DNA of 64,000 nucleotides, from positions 1 through 64,000 of the forward strand of contig CAIRMO010000092.1 in the NCBI GenBank assembly GCA_903879705.1, written 5' to 3'. The stretch comes from an uncultured Candidatus Competibacteraceae bacterium (lineage in GTDB: Bacteria; Pseudomonadota; Gammaproteobacteria; Competibacterales; Competibacteraceae). Position 1 is the stretch's first letter; each line of letters starts with the position of its first letter. The notes beneath the pieces are model-generated. The model saw only the letters and a program-made list of their open reading frames with translations, had not been told where the DNA came from and searched no databases. A program made the position numbers and the translations under genes. Shown here one piece after another: positions 4,897 through 46,468 of the stretch.

Positions 4897-5071
4897 GATG
4901 CTGCATAGCCACATTAGAATGAACCCGGTTTTTGCGATATGCCGATTCTCCCCTATCCCAAAGATACTATTGATCAACCCGACCCCGATTCGCCAGCCGC
5001 GTAAGCCGGGTTTGAGTCGGTACATCGCAACACCTCCAACCACCGCGTAACCATCAAAGAGGACTGGAAAA

Positions 5072-6364
5072 ATGGCATTTCTGAGCGTTGAACAACTGAA
5101 AAAAGACTGGGCCGAAAATCCCCGCTGGCAGGGCATCAAGCGTGGTTATAGCGCCGAGGACGTGGTGCGGTTGCGCGGCAACCTGCCGATCGAGTACAGC
5201 CTGGCGCAACGGGGCGCAGAAGGCCTGTGGAAATTGATCACCACAGAACCCTACGTCAACTGTCTGGGCGCGTTGACTGGCGGTCAGGCGATGCAGCAGG
5301 CCAAGGCTGGCATCAAGGCCATCTACCTGTCCGGCTGGCAGGTCGCGGCGGACAACAATACCTACATGGCGATGTATCCCGACCAGTCGCTGTATCCGGT
5401 CAACTCGGTGCCTGCGGTGGTCGAGCGGATTAACAACACCTTCAAGCGGGCCGACGAGATTCAGTGCGCACGCGGCATCGGCCCCGGCCACAAGGATTTT
5501 GTCGACTACTTCCTGCCCATCGTCGGCGATGCCGAAGCGGGGTTTGGCGGGGTGCTGAACGCCCACGAGCTGATGAAGTCGATGATCCGCGCCGGGGCGG
5601 GCGGAGTGCATTTCGAGGATCAACTGGCCTCGGTCAAGAAGTGCGGCCACATGGGCGGCAAGGTGCTGGTGCCTTCCCAGGAAGCGGTGCAGAAGCTGAT
5701 CGCGGCCCGGCTGGCGGCGGATGTCTGCGGTGTCCCAACCATCATTCTGGCCCGCACCGACGCCGAAGCCGCTGACCTGCTGACTAGCGATTGCGACGAA
5801 AATGACAAGTCGTTCTGCACCGGCGAGCGTACCCCGGAAGGTTTCTACAAGACCCGCAAGGGGCTGGATCAGGCGATTTCGCGGGGTCTGGCCTACGCGC
5901 CCTACGCCGACATGGTGTGGTGCGAGACGGGCACTCCCGATCTCGAATATGCCCGCCGTTTTGCTGATGCAATCCGTGATCAGTTCCCCGGCAAAATGCT
6001 GGCTTATAACTGTTCGCCGTCCTTCAACTGGAAGAAGAACCTCGACGATGCCACCATCGCCAAATTCCAGCGTGAACTCGGCGCGATGGGCTACAAGTAC
6101 CAGTTCATCACCCTGGCCGGCATTCATAACATGTGGTACCACATGTTCGATCTCGCCCAGGACTATGTGCAGCGCGGCATGACCGCTTATGTCGAGAAGG
6201 TCCAGGAGCAGGAATTTGCCGCTCGAGATCGGGGCTACACCTTCGTCAGTCATCAGCAGGAAGTCGGCACCGGCTACTTCGACGACATGACCACCGTGAT
6301 TCAGGGCGGCGTGTCCTCCGTCACCGCGCTAACCGGTTCGACCGAGGAAGAACAGTTCCACTAA
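5072..6364 (+). CDS. aceA: Isocitrate lyase
   Basis: A 430-residue enzyme that cleaves isocitrate to glyoxylate and succinate, the first step of the glyoxylate shunt, in the cytosol. The catalytic KKCGH loop is present ([15 protein letters not shown], about residue 190), as are the substrate-binding LTGGQAMQQ and WQVAADNN region, the metal-site ARTDAEAA and the [11 protein letters not shown] signature. Length fits the compact bacterial subfamily. The start is preceded by AGAGGA with suitable spacing. Malate synthase lies downstream on the same strand, separated by a terminator and a palindromic element. The pair allows growth on acetate or fatty acids, in keeping with actP elsewhere in the window. 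Confidence 0.97.
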
Positions 6365-16153: not shown

Positions 16154-16762
16154 TTATCGCCGTTGAAACCCGAGTCCGCGCCCCCATAGCCGATAGCCCA
16201 GCAACATCGCCAATACTCCCCCGTACAGCAACGGCCCGCTCAGATCGGCCTTGACCTGCCACGCATAGTGCAACACGCCCAGCACCGCGATGGGATAAAC
16301 CAATCGGTGCAACCGCTGCCAGTTGCGTCCCAACCGCTTCATCATCCTGTAAGTCGACGTGATCGCCAGCGGAATCAGCAGCAGGAATGCCGCAAAGCCG
16401 ACGGTGAGATAAGGCCGTTTAACCACATCGGCAACAATCGCCGGCCAGTCGAAAAACTGATCGAAAACCAGATAGATGGCGAAATGCAGGCCGACATAGA
16501 AGAACGCAAACAGACCCAGCATTCGGCGGAATTGTTGCAATCGGTTCCAGCCGGTTAAGCGCCGAGCCGGAGTGATGGTCAGCGTCAGCAACAAAAACCG
16601 CAGGCTCCAGTCACCCGTGCGATGACTCAGCGTTTCCACTGGGTTTGCCCCCAACTGTCCCTGCCAGGCCAGCCCGCAGAGCCACACCAGTGGCAACAGG
16701 CAGGCAATAAAGATCAATGGCTTGGTGATCAATAACCGGCGACGGGCGAGATGCGGGTTCAT
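16154..16762 (-). CDS. msrQ: Heme-binding membrane subunit MsrQ
   Basis: About 202 residues from the ATG at 16762 (MNPHLARRRLLITKP). It has six hydrophobic segments and the ferric-reductase-like pattern of MsrQ/YedZ: TGDWSLRFLLLTLTITPARR, RRMLGLFAFFYVGLHFAIY, then TSTYRMMKRLGRNWQRLHRLVY and HYAW. The conserved His residues ligate b-type heme. MsrQ passes electrons from the quinone pool or flavin reductase to periplasmic MsrP, which repairs oxidised methionines. No msrP is adjacent. A terminator-bearing small RNA candidate ends 24 bases upstream of the start. Confidence 0.9.
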   Translation of the reverse strand: MNPHLARRRLLITKPLIFIACLLPLVWLCGLAWQGQLGANPVETLSHRTGDWSLRFLLLTLTITPARRLTGWNRLQQFRRMLGLFAFFYVGLHFAIYLVFDQFFDWPAIVADVVKRPYLTVGFAAFLLLIPLAITSTYRMMKRLGRNWQRLHRLVYPIAVLGVLHYAWQVKADLSGPLLYGGVLAMLLGYRLWGRGLGFQRR

Positions 16763-16786
16763 GGCGGCAGGTTTTCCGGCAGGCAC

Positions 16787-16865
16787 AAAAAAAAGCCGGA
16801 ACTTGCGTACCGGCCAAAAGAACCACCAAAGGAGGATTGAAAAGCAACATTCAGTTGAATGTTGC
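16787..16865 (-). ncRNA. Candidate small RNA (about 79 nt) upstream of msrQ
   Basis: Read on the minus strand from 16865. First comes a perfect 10-bp hairpin (GCAACATTCA, 2-base spacer, TGAATGTTGC). Next is an unpaired pyrimidine-rich stretch containing AATCCTCCTTTGG, complementary to a Shine-Dalgarno sequence. Last is a terminator GCCGG-T-AC-GCAA-GT-T-CCGGC with a GCAA tetraloop, followed by eight T. A sigma-70 promoter with 17-bp spacing lies immediately upstream, and its predicted start falls on the first base of the hairpin. No ORF fits. It could instead be an attenuated msrQ leader. Confidence 0.6.
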
Positions 16866-16870
16866 AGCGC

Positions 16871-16899
16871 AGTATAAAAGGTTTGTTGCACTGCGTCAA
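16871..16899 (-). promoter_or_regulatory. Sigma-70 promoter of the small RNA
   Basis: On the minus strand TTGACG (16899-16894) is followed after exactly 17 bases by TATACT (16876-16871). The spacer and start region carry repeated TGCA/CTGC-type sequence (CAGTGCAAC, GCGCTGCAAC), which could be a regulator site. Confidence 0.65.
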
Positions 16900-16941
16900 T
16901 ACTTGCAGCGAAATCACCGGACCCCTTTTTATGCAATGGAT

Positions 16942-17961
16942 TCAACGATTCAGTAGCACGATCTTGCCCATCTGTTCCGCCGCCAGCAGCCGTTGATGAG
17001 CGGCCATTGCGCGATCAAGAGGGAAAATTTGGTCGATCACCGGTTCAACCCGGTGGTCAGCGACAAAGCGCAACATCGCCGCAAATTCGTCGGGCGATCC
17101 CATCGTCGAGCCGATGACCCGCGCCTGGCGAAAAAACAGTCGCACCAAGTCCAGCCCAGGCGAATTGCCCGCCGTTGACCCGTACACTATCAACCGCCCG
17201 CCCGGCTTCAATACCGAGAAACAGCCCTTGAAGGCTGAGCCGCCGGTGCCGTCCACCACCACATCGACCCCACCGGTCAGTTTCGCCAACTGTTTATCCC
17301 AATCGTCCGCCCGGTAATTGACCCCGCCCGCCGCGCCCAGTTGTCGGGCCTGTTCGAGCTTGTGGTCATCGCCGCTGGTGACGAATACATGTGCGCCCAG
17401 CGCGACTGCCCACTTCAATGCAAAGGTCGCTACCCCGCCGCCGATGCCCGTCACCAATACCGTTTCGCCCGGCTGTGCTGCGCCCTGGGTCATCAGCGCC
17501 CGCCACGAAGTCAACCCGGCCAACGGGATCGCCGCCGCCTGTTCCCAGTTCAAATGGGCCGGTTTAGGAAATAGATGACCGGCAGGAACGCACAGGTATT
17601 CGGCGAAAGTTCCCGGATCAGGCATGCCCAAGACCCGGAAGGTGGCACTGGGAAAGATGGGATTAGCGCCCCAGTCGTAGGCCGGATAAATGACGACTTC
17701 CTGACCCAGCCAGTCCTGTCCCAACAAATCATCCGGGGCGACCGGGCCAATTTTATCGACGACGCCGGCCCCGTCAGAACCGGTGGTGCAAGGCAAGCGG
17801 AGGCCTGGATATTGGCCGAGCGTGATCCAGACATCGCGGCGATTCAGGGCCGAGGCCTGGAGACGCACCCGTACCTGACCGGGACCGGGTTCCGGGATTG
17901 CCCTTTCTTCAATTTGCACCTGATCGGGACCGCCGAGTTGGCGGAGAATGACGGCTTTCAT
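16942..17961 (-). CDS. Zinc-type alcohol dehydrogenase / quinone oxidoreductase family (MDR)
   Basis: A 339-residue medium-chain dehydrogenase/reductase. The N-terminal GroES-like part starts MKAVILRQLGG and has EPGPGQVRVRLQASALNRRD. The NAD(P) Rossmann motif is VLVTGIGGGVATFALKWAVALG. The end, AEQMGKIVLLNR, is typical of quinone-reductase-like members. The usual catalytic zinc Cys-His-Glu set is not clearly present (NRRDVW in place of a C-x-x-D pattern), suggesting a zinc-independent reductase. Substrate is unknown. It is divergent from the PFOR operon, with about 270 bases between. Confidence 0.85.
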   Translation of the reverse strand: MKAVILRQLGGPDQVQIEERAIPEPGPGQVRVRLQASALNRRDVWITLGQYPGLRLPCTTGSDGAGVVDKIGPVAPDDLLGQDWLGQEVVIYPAYDWGANPIFPSATFRVLGMPDPGTFAEYLCVPAGHLFPKPAHLNWEQAAAIPLAGLTSWRALMTQGAAQPGETVLVTGIGGGVATFALKWAVALGAHVFVTSGDDHKLEQARQLGAAGGVNYRADDWDKQLAKLTGGVDVVVDGTGGSAFKGCFSVLKPGGRLIVYGSTAGNSPGLDLVRLFFRQARVIGSTMGSPDEFAAMLRFVADHRVEPVIDQIFPLDRAMAAHQRLLAAEQMGKIVLLNR

Positions 17962-46100: not shown

Positions 46101-46468
46101 GGGGGCGATCCGGATTTCGACGTGGATTACAAAACCTGAGGCGCATGCCGAGGATGTAGCTCACCTCGTTAATCATGCTGCAACTTATAGTCGCCAACGA
46201 CGACAGCTTCGCACTAGCGGCCTGAGGGCTGCTAGCCTCTGACCGGAACTTGCTTGTGAGGTCCGGAGCCTTTCGGGGCGTTCAGGGGTCGACTAACACA
46301 AGATCGCCACCGAACCTGTCCGGGGGGGAGGGGCTAAAACTCACCGGAACCGCCGTTTGCCGCCCTGCCGATCGGGTTGCGAAAGGTTAAAACAAAGATC
46401 AGGCTAAGCATGTAGGGCCAAGGGCAGAGGATTTGCGGACGGGGGTTCAATTCCCCCCGCCTCCACCA
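46101..46468 (+). ncRNA. ssrA: tmRNA
   Basis: The 5' end GGGGGCGATCCGGATTTCGACG and the 3' end GGTTCAATTCCCCCCGCCTCCACCA form the tRNA-like domain. The tag reading frame GCC AAC GAC GAC AGC TTC GCA CTA GCG GCC TGA encodes ANDDSFALAA, preceded by a resume-like TATAGTC. Pseudoknot-rich sequence fills the middle. Length of 368 nt is typical. It rescues stalled ribosomes with SmpB. A terminator follows directly. Confidence 0.96.

Follow-up and report, generated by a model that had tools for sequence, protein, structure and literature searches.

MmgR of S. meliloti, which belongs to suhB (RF00519, alpha-r8), is described in the sections consulted of two reports as an RNA of about 77 nt whose promoter carries a box for PhaR (AniA) and which is linked to PHB and phasins (PMC12542648, PMC8401924). 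The same sections of the first report present S. meliloti PhaR as a protein that is active when free and inactive when bound to PHB, that represses phasin genes, and that binds the sRNA gene mmgR in EMSA and represses it (PMC12542648). A PhaR consensus, TGCRNYGCASMA, was deduced from DNase footprints in Bradyrhizobium, as given in the part of that study used here (PMC6201568). The "toxic" RNAs of RF02278 (NcS27, bdhR1, and Bordetella S17), which retard growth and target ribosome-binding sites according to the excerpts cited (PMC5688073, PMC10987360, PMC11722255), are portrayed in the descriptions drawn on here as two hairpins around a C/U-rich linker, with several copies per genome.

The locus studied here lies in a stretch of 64,000 nucleotides from an uncultured Candidatus Competibacteraceae bacterium, the whole of which is called the window below. 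Its sRNA combines a predicted MmgR-like control with an RF02278-like form and does not score as belonging to either family, because no Rfam family reaches its cut-off with the window copy and the other copies lean to RF02278. With MmgR, as the consulted sections describe it, it shares the length (about 79 nt against about 77 nt) and a PhaR-type promoter box, but the window copy scores 21.4 bits with RF00519, below the gathering value of 41, there is no sequence evidence of common descent, and the window sRNA has better predicted pairing sites than the phasin leaders. A search with RF02278 did not list the window copy at either E 5 or E 1, three copies from the Competibacteraceae scored 26.2 to 33.6 bits against a gathering value of 50, and the sequences of the 5′ hairpin and terminator differ; moreover, PhaR-type promoters, which the A and B copies defined below possess, are not mentioned for RF02278 RNAs in the portions of the literature covered. 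Class-wide relatives come nearest to that gathering value, with 30 to 47.2 bits, and a distant kinship of the window sRNA with RF02278 is suggested. Among Rfam families, Burkholderia ncS16 (RF02866) gives the window copy its highest score, 22.5 bits against a gathering value of 48, and the source sections on ncS16 report no PHA link; anti-hemB gave 15.4 bits. The sibling anti-Shine-Dalgarno sRNAs of Neisseria (NmsR), which are tandem and near-identical and act on central carbon metabolism, are not known to share the promoter control of the window sRNA. In sewage plants, glycogen-accumulating organisms of the Competibacter type are competitors of the phosphate removers, and their core trait is PHA storage. 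A literature search found nothing joining Competibacter with "small RNA," and the co-mention with "sRNA" concerned, by title, nanoparticle resistance.

The sRNA gene, of about 79 nt, occupies 16787..16865 on the minus strand, as do all parts of the locus described here. Upstream lies a gene for a zinc-binding dehydrogenase of the quinone oxidoreductase type (16942..17961; PF00107, PF08240), and downstream a gene for a membrane protein (16154..16762; PF01794 Ferric_reduct, E 4.8e-20), which we take to be msrQ. The earlier note, made from the sequence of the window, had described an independent sRNA with a consensus promoter, and the sigma70-type promoter TTGACG-17-TATACT is indeed found at 16871..16899, with its −35 element at 16899-16894 and its −10 element at 16876-16871 separated by a 17-nt spacer. 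The predicted start, six bases past the −10 element, is the first base of the perfect 22-nt hairpin that the note had pointed out (16844..16865), which consists of 9 bp and a 4-nt loop. The C/U-rich anti-Shine-Dalgarno core AATCCTCCTTTGGTGGTT follows at 16821..16838, and the intrinsic terminator, with its GCAA loop and U-run, spans 16787..16815 and ends at 16787, as had been read, 24 nt from the msrQ ATG at 16762; its stem contains one internal mismatch. The pyrimidine-rich stretch AATCCTCCTTTGG is present, but it is not wholly unpaired as had been thought: in the minimum-energy fold it forms a weak helix of 2+2 bp and is otherwise free. The RNA folds with −26.4 kcal/mol, against −13.9 ± 2.8 for shuffled sequences (z −4.5; none of 200 folded as well). 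Within 3 kb two promoters were found, against 0.6 in shuffles, and this one is the better, but the promoter scan taken alone is weak evidence, mildly over chance. The terminator scan showed no excess (4 against 4.1 in shuffles), listing the 5′ hairpin and missing the true terminator. The decisive evidence for the sRNA, from comparison of sequences, is conservation.

That conservation, which the earlier note had named as a check upstream of msrQ and whose absence would have spoken against the sRNA, was found: a 501-nt probe matched 35 of the 59 relatives, the own genome being counted, and promoter, hairpin, core, and terminator are kept there. Most relatives carry two complete units, A and B, in tandem between the dehydrogenase gene and msrQ, each with its own promoter, hairpin, C/U-rich core, and terminator. 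A third type, C, occurs at other loci, lying beside the RNase P RNA gene in two of the 18 second-locus stretches scanned. The promoter layout TTGAC(N)6-TAnnnT recurs in relatives, and CTTTGGTGG is nearly invariant across A, B, and C copies. The covariance model R1, built from 25 copies including that of the window, finds 37 of the 39 family genomes (G011 and G031 were missed), training copies matching by construction; likewise, the 78.7 bits given to the window copy (E 8.7e-14 in its own genome) refer to a copy in the training set. A second model, R2, finds 38 of 39. The alignment A4 holds 25 of the 33 A copies; those left out are a copy containing Ns, three that carry an insert of about 30 nt, and four aberrant ones. 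In these 25 copies 95.5% of the cells pair, with both-side changes in nine of 17 pairs (three of nine in the 5′ hairpin; six of eight in the terminator stem among relatives), each covariation measure being reached by at most one of 500 shuffles, and pairing falls to 34 to 49% when partners are slid by 1 to 3 columns. The 15 C copies are 98.9% paired, with both-side changes in six of 19 pairs, while their number of pair types was not over that of shuffles (99/500). These comparative data indicate that the segment is a genuine gene for a conserved small regulatory RNA, which bears out the independent sRNA of the earlier note; that note did not describe the tandem arrangement, the fusion of A and B, the connection with PHA, or the candidate target.

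The position of the segment, on the strand of msrQ with its terminator 24 nt upstream of that gene, would also suit a 5′ leader that acts on msrQ as a cis attenuator and yields no independent RNA. Such a role is very improbable, given that relatives possess two complete promoter-hairpin-terminator units in tandem with both terminators kept and that complete C-type units exist elsewhere, in two genomes beside the RNase P RNA gene. Still less credible is a coding sequence, either an N-terminal extension of msrQ or a small ORF: although no stop interrupts the msrQ frame across the segment in the window (ORF 16154-16945), translations of the segment in three congeners have stops in most frames, the spacing in these congeners varies by non-multiples of three, and the variation in the helices is compensatory. 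A reading of the segment as a repeat element was considered and set aside. A middle hairpin that would place the anti-Shine-Dalgarno sequence in its loop in many A copies was also considered; the right arm of that hairpin is invariant, and the alignment therefore offers no covariation that speaks for or against it. The A copies of three genus-g8 genomes (L019, L038, and L039) have an additional inserted hairpin of about 30 nt, which separates the 5′ hairpin from the core. G006 and G009, which represent two genera, hold up to seven RNA copies each on several contigs, an expansion of the family. The C-type copies of G002 and G003 (L041:1014-1101 and L046:1022-1109), located immediately before the RNase P RNA gene, have no PhaR-type box and a different 5′ hairpin of 11 bp.

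The window copy, the only one that R1 and R2 find in its own genome, has a mixed ancestry. Its promoter is nearer to A than to B in all three congeners compared (78% against 66–70% identity), and so is its 5′ part (83–90% against 61–64%), whereas its terminator and the bases that follow are nearer to B than to A (84–87% against 71–79%). Judged by these identities, the window copy is an A/B fusion, with the promoter, 5′ hairpin, and core of A and the terminator of B, which would have come about through a deletion between the shared CTTTGGTGGTT cores. A C copy was sought beside the RNase P RNA gene of the own genome, and the site was empty.

The CTGC/TGCA repeats at the promoter, in which the earlier note had seen a hint of regulation, match the published PhaR box TGCRNYGCASMA and correspond to PhaR-type boxes common to phasin promoters. 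Box 1 (CGCAGTGCAACA, 16884..16895) overlaps the −35 element and matches YGCRNYGCA, a relaxed form of TGCRNYGCASMA; it has C where the consensus begins with T and agrees in part with the final SMA. Box 2 (TGCGCTGCAACA, 16860..16871) overlaps the end of the −10 element and +1, and together with the −10 element it makes up the composite TATACTGCGCTGCAACA (16876-16860), one of three in the own genome. Over all copies counted, YGCRNYGCA covers −35 in 29 of the 33 A copies and in all 24 B copies; it covers −10/+1 in 28 of the 33 A copies but in one of the 24 B copies, the B count including L054, an A-like copy at another locus; none of the 15 C copies has it. The composite TATAYTGCNNTGCARCA occurs at 83 sites in 34 of the 39 family genomes, its reversed control at none. 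The three sites of the own genome belong to the sRNA, to a phasin gene, whose promoter has the same layout with a box over −35 plus TATATTGCGCTGCAACA, and to a 57-aa phasin-like ORF. Without the sRNA copies and the own genome, 60 sites were left, and when these were fetched, 31 were found to precede phasin homologues directly, nine thymidylate synthase, two Pta-like genes, and two glycosyltransferase/starch-synthase-like genes, the other 16 having a different gene or no clear one after them; Pfam confirmed thymidylate synthase in one of the nine cases, and it was recognized from the protein start in the others. The own genome encodes PhaR (PF07879, 98.6 bits, with PF05233) in a gene that adjoins a phaB-type short-chain-dehydrogenase (acetoacetyl-CoA-reductase-type) gene and a PhaC-like hydrolase gene, and it has four phasin-domain genes. 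Read from its boxes, the sRNA promoter is a PHA-regulon promoter, at which PhaR binding is predicted. The motif GCANTGCARCA gave 27 own-genome sites against seven for its control, mostly in ORFs or in a contig-end repeat, with few that look promoter-like. The phasin-like ORF (L116:1266-1436) has a PHA-type promoter and resembles a phasin N terminus, with no Pfam hit. The nine family genomes in which the composite stands before thymidylate synthase are represented by L261, L264, L269, L278, L279, L282, L286, L297, and L299.

Whether the box goes with PhaR could also be asked outside the family. GTDB places Burkholderiales in the same class. At E 0.001, R1 matched 81 of 369 class genomes, four of the 81 being in the family, and PhaR was over the cut-off in 108 of the 369. 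The comparison covered 76 loci from 75 of the 77 outside-family genomes (all except G164 and G300, and without the second copies of G125 and G215), a subthreshold PF07879 match in G222 being scored as absence of PhaR. Upstream of the core, [CT]GCRNYGCA was found at seven of 23 loci with PhaR and one of 53 without it (Fisher p 0.0007; shuffled background 0.8%), and the strict form TGCRNYGCA at five of 23 and one of 53 (p 0.0086). The one exception, G248, is 86% complete and belongs to the same genus as G125, which has PhaR. The seven boxed loci with PhaR are spread over only five families, and sister genomes are not independent, so the count is somewhat inflated by sister species. The box is absent from 16 of the 23 sRNA loci of outside-family genomes with PhaR, which limits the PhaR link to certain lineages, most being without such wiring.

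These results bear on the possibility that the sRNA is real and that some regulator different from PhaR recognizes its boxes, or that PhaR acts there as an activator, which would make the PHA link indirect. The PhaR motif is matched by sequence only, and the composite also precedes the thymidylate synthase (9/60), Pta-like (2), and glycosyltransferase/starch-synthase-like (2) genes; against this, the box agrees with a consensus that was footprinted with DNase, as far as the consulted part of that work goes, 31 of 60 sites precede phasins, and the box tracks the presence of PhaR outside the family. We therefore hold this alternative to be rather improbable.

Building on the gene structure, its conservation and covariation, the box, its sharing with phasins, and its co-occurrence with PhaR, all of which are read from sequence, we consider it probable that the locus encodes an independent, trans-acting anti-Shine-Dalgarno sRNA that is repressed by PhaR, is released with the phasins on PHA accumulation, and blocks selected carbon-metabolism mRNAs. 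PhaR, the polymer-sensing repressor of polyhydroxyalkanoate (PHA) storage, would bind the boxes over −35 and −10/+1 and keep the sRNA off. Sequestration of PhaR on newly formed PHA granules would allow the sRNA to be transcribed together with the phasins; by analogy with S. meliloti, the sRNA would be silent as long as polymer is lacking and switched on along with the phasins. It would then pair through UCCUCCUUUGGUGGUU, possibly with the use of Hfq, with ribosome-binding sites and block the translation of selected carbon-metabolism mRNAs, for which that of isocitrate lyase is the best candidate. The switch of the sRNA being that of the granule-coat genes, it probably adjusts protein production as carbon reserves build. 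If this is true, a PhaR-type sRNA adds a posttranscriptional arm to PHA control in the Competibacter group, MmgR-like wiring arose around a different RNA, and an RNA marker of the PHA state becomes available that can be tested directly in metatranscriptomes.

The core is exposed and complements ribosome-binding sites, with which we infer that it pairs, and the target prediction proposed by the earlier note did yield a best candidate, isocitrate lyase (aceA; 5072..6361, plus strand; PF00463, E 3e-109). The predicted site, AACCATCAAAGAGGA, lies over the ribosome-binding site at 5049..5063 (plus strand), −23 to −9 from the ATG at 5072, and its pairing energy of −27.3 kcal/mol is the best among the 52 predicted gene starts in the window, being reached by none of 2000 shuffled baits and two of 2000 shuffled leaders. 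In the window as a whole, 21 of 18274 42-mers taken every 7 nt reach this energy, which corresponds to about 0.06 expected among 52 genes. This leader block is identical in G001, the one relative compared, where the upstream leader has diverged; recovery of the aceA leader by synteny succeeded in one of 20 regions, synteny being broken in the other 19. With about 0.06 expected by chance and one relative compared, isocitrate lyase, the best candidate target in the window, is to be taken as a lead. No genome-wide excess of long complements of the core was seen: CACCAAAGGAGG with one mismatch gave eight sites against 32 for the reversed control, a lack of enrichment that leaves no long perfect targets besides the gene itself. 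The leaders of phasin, phaR, phaB, msrQ, and the dehydrogenase were also tried as targets and rank from 8 to 48 of 52, none of them being best; the three annotated phasin leaders rank 25, 45, and 48 in pairing energy, and the phasin-like ORF ranks 21.

Instead of a few PHA-linked targets, the sRNA might act as a general anti-Shine-Dalgarno or growth-arrest RNA like those of RF02278, affecting translation broadly or many transport and catabolic mRNAs. The effects on growth and on ribosome-binding sites noted above for RF02278 RNAs would fit such a role, as would a core that is almost identical across the class (the 81 of 369 genomes matched by R1), the 15 loci scanned there including RF02278 matches of 30 to 47 bits. 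The mean pairing energy with the 52 window gene starts, however, is −15.6, against −15.4 with shuffled bait, and thus no better, and a promoter of the PHA type points to action under a specific condition. A general role of this kind is accordingly unlikely in our estimation, though less so than control by another regulator or activation by PhaR.

Beyond the PhaR-repressed sRNA itself, we tentatively suggest an evolutionary route that is possible but still doubtful as a whole, in which an old beta/gammaproteobacterial anti-Shine-Dalgarno sRNA was captured by a PhaR promoter module, became a riboregulator responsive to storage granules and, on release by PHA granules, lowers isocitrate lyase, thereby directing acetyl-CoA to polymer and not into the glyoxylate shunt, with its targets divided between A and B. 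The capture would have taken place in Competibacteraceae and again, as a separate event, in a small number of further lineages with PhaR, in convergence with the alphaproteobacterial MmgR, and the duplicated A and B copies might have split the target set as their anti-Shine-Dalgarno stretches diverged.

Some minor observations concern other elements. The window contains a tmRNA gene at 46101-46468 (211 bits). A second RNase P RNA-like match of 184 bits was found in the own genome at G000:C105:2493-2789, the normal one scoring 326 bits. At contig ends of the own genome (L091, L094, L098, L104, L111, and L115) there is an AT-rich repeat with GCATTGCAGCA, which is probably the end of a mobile element.
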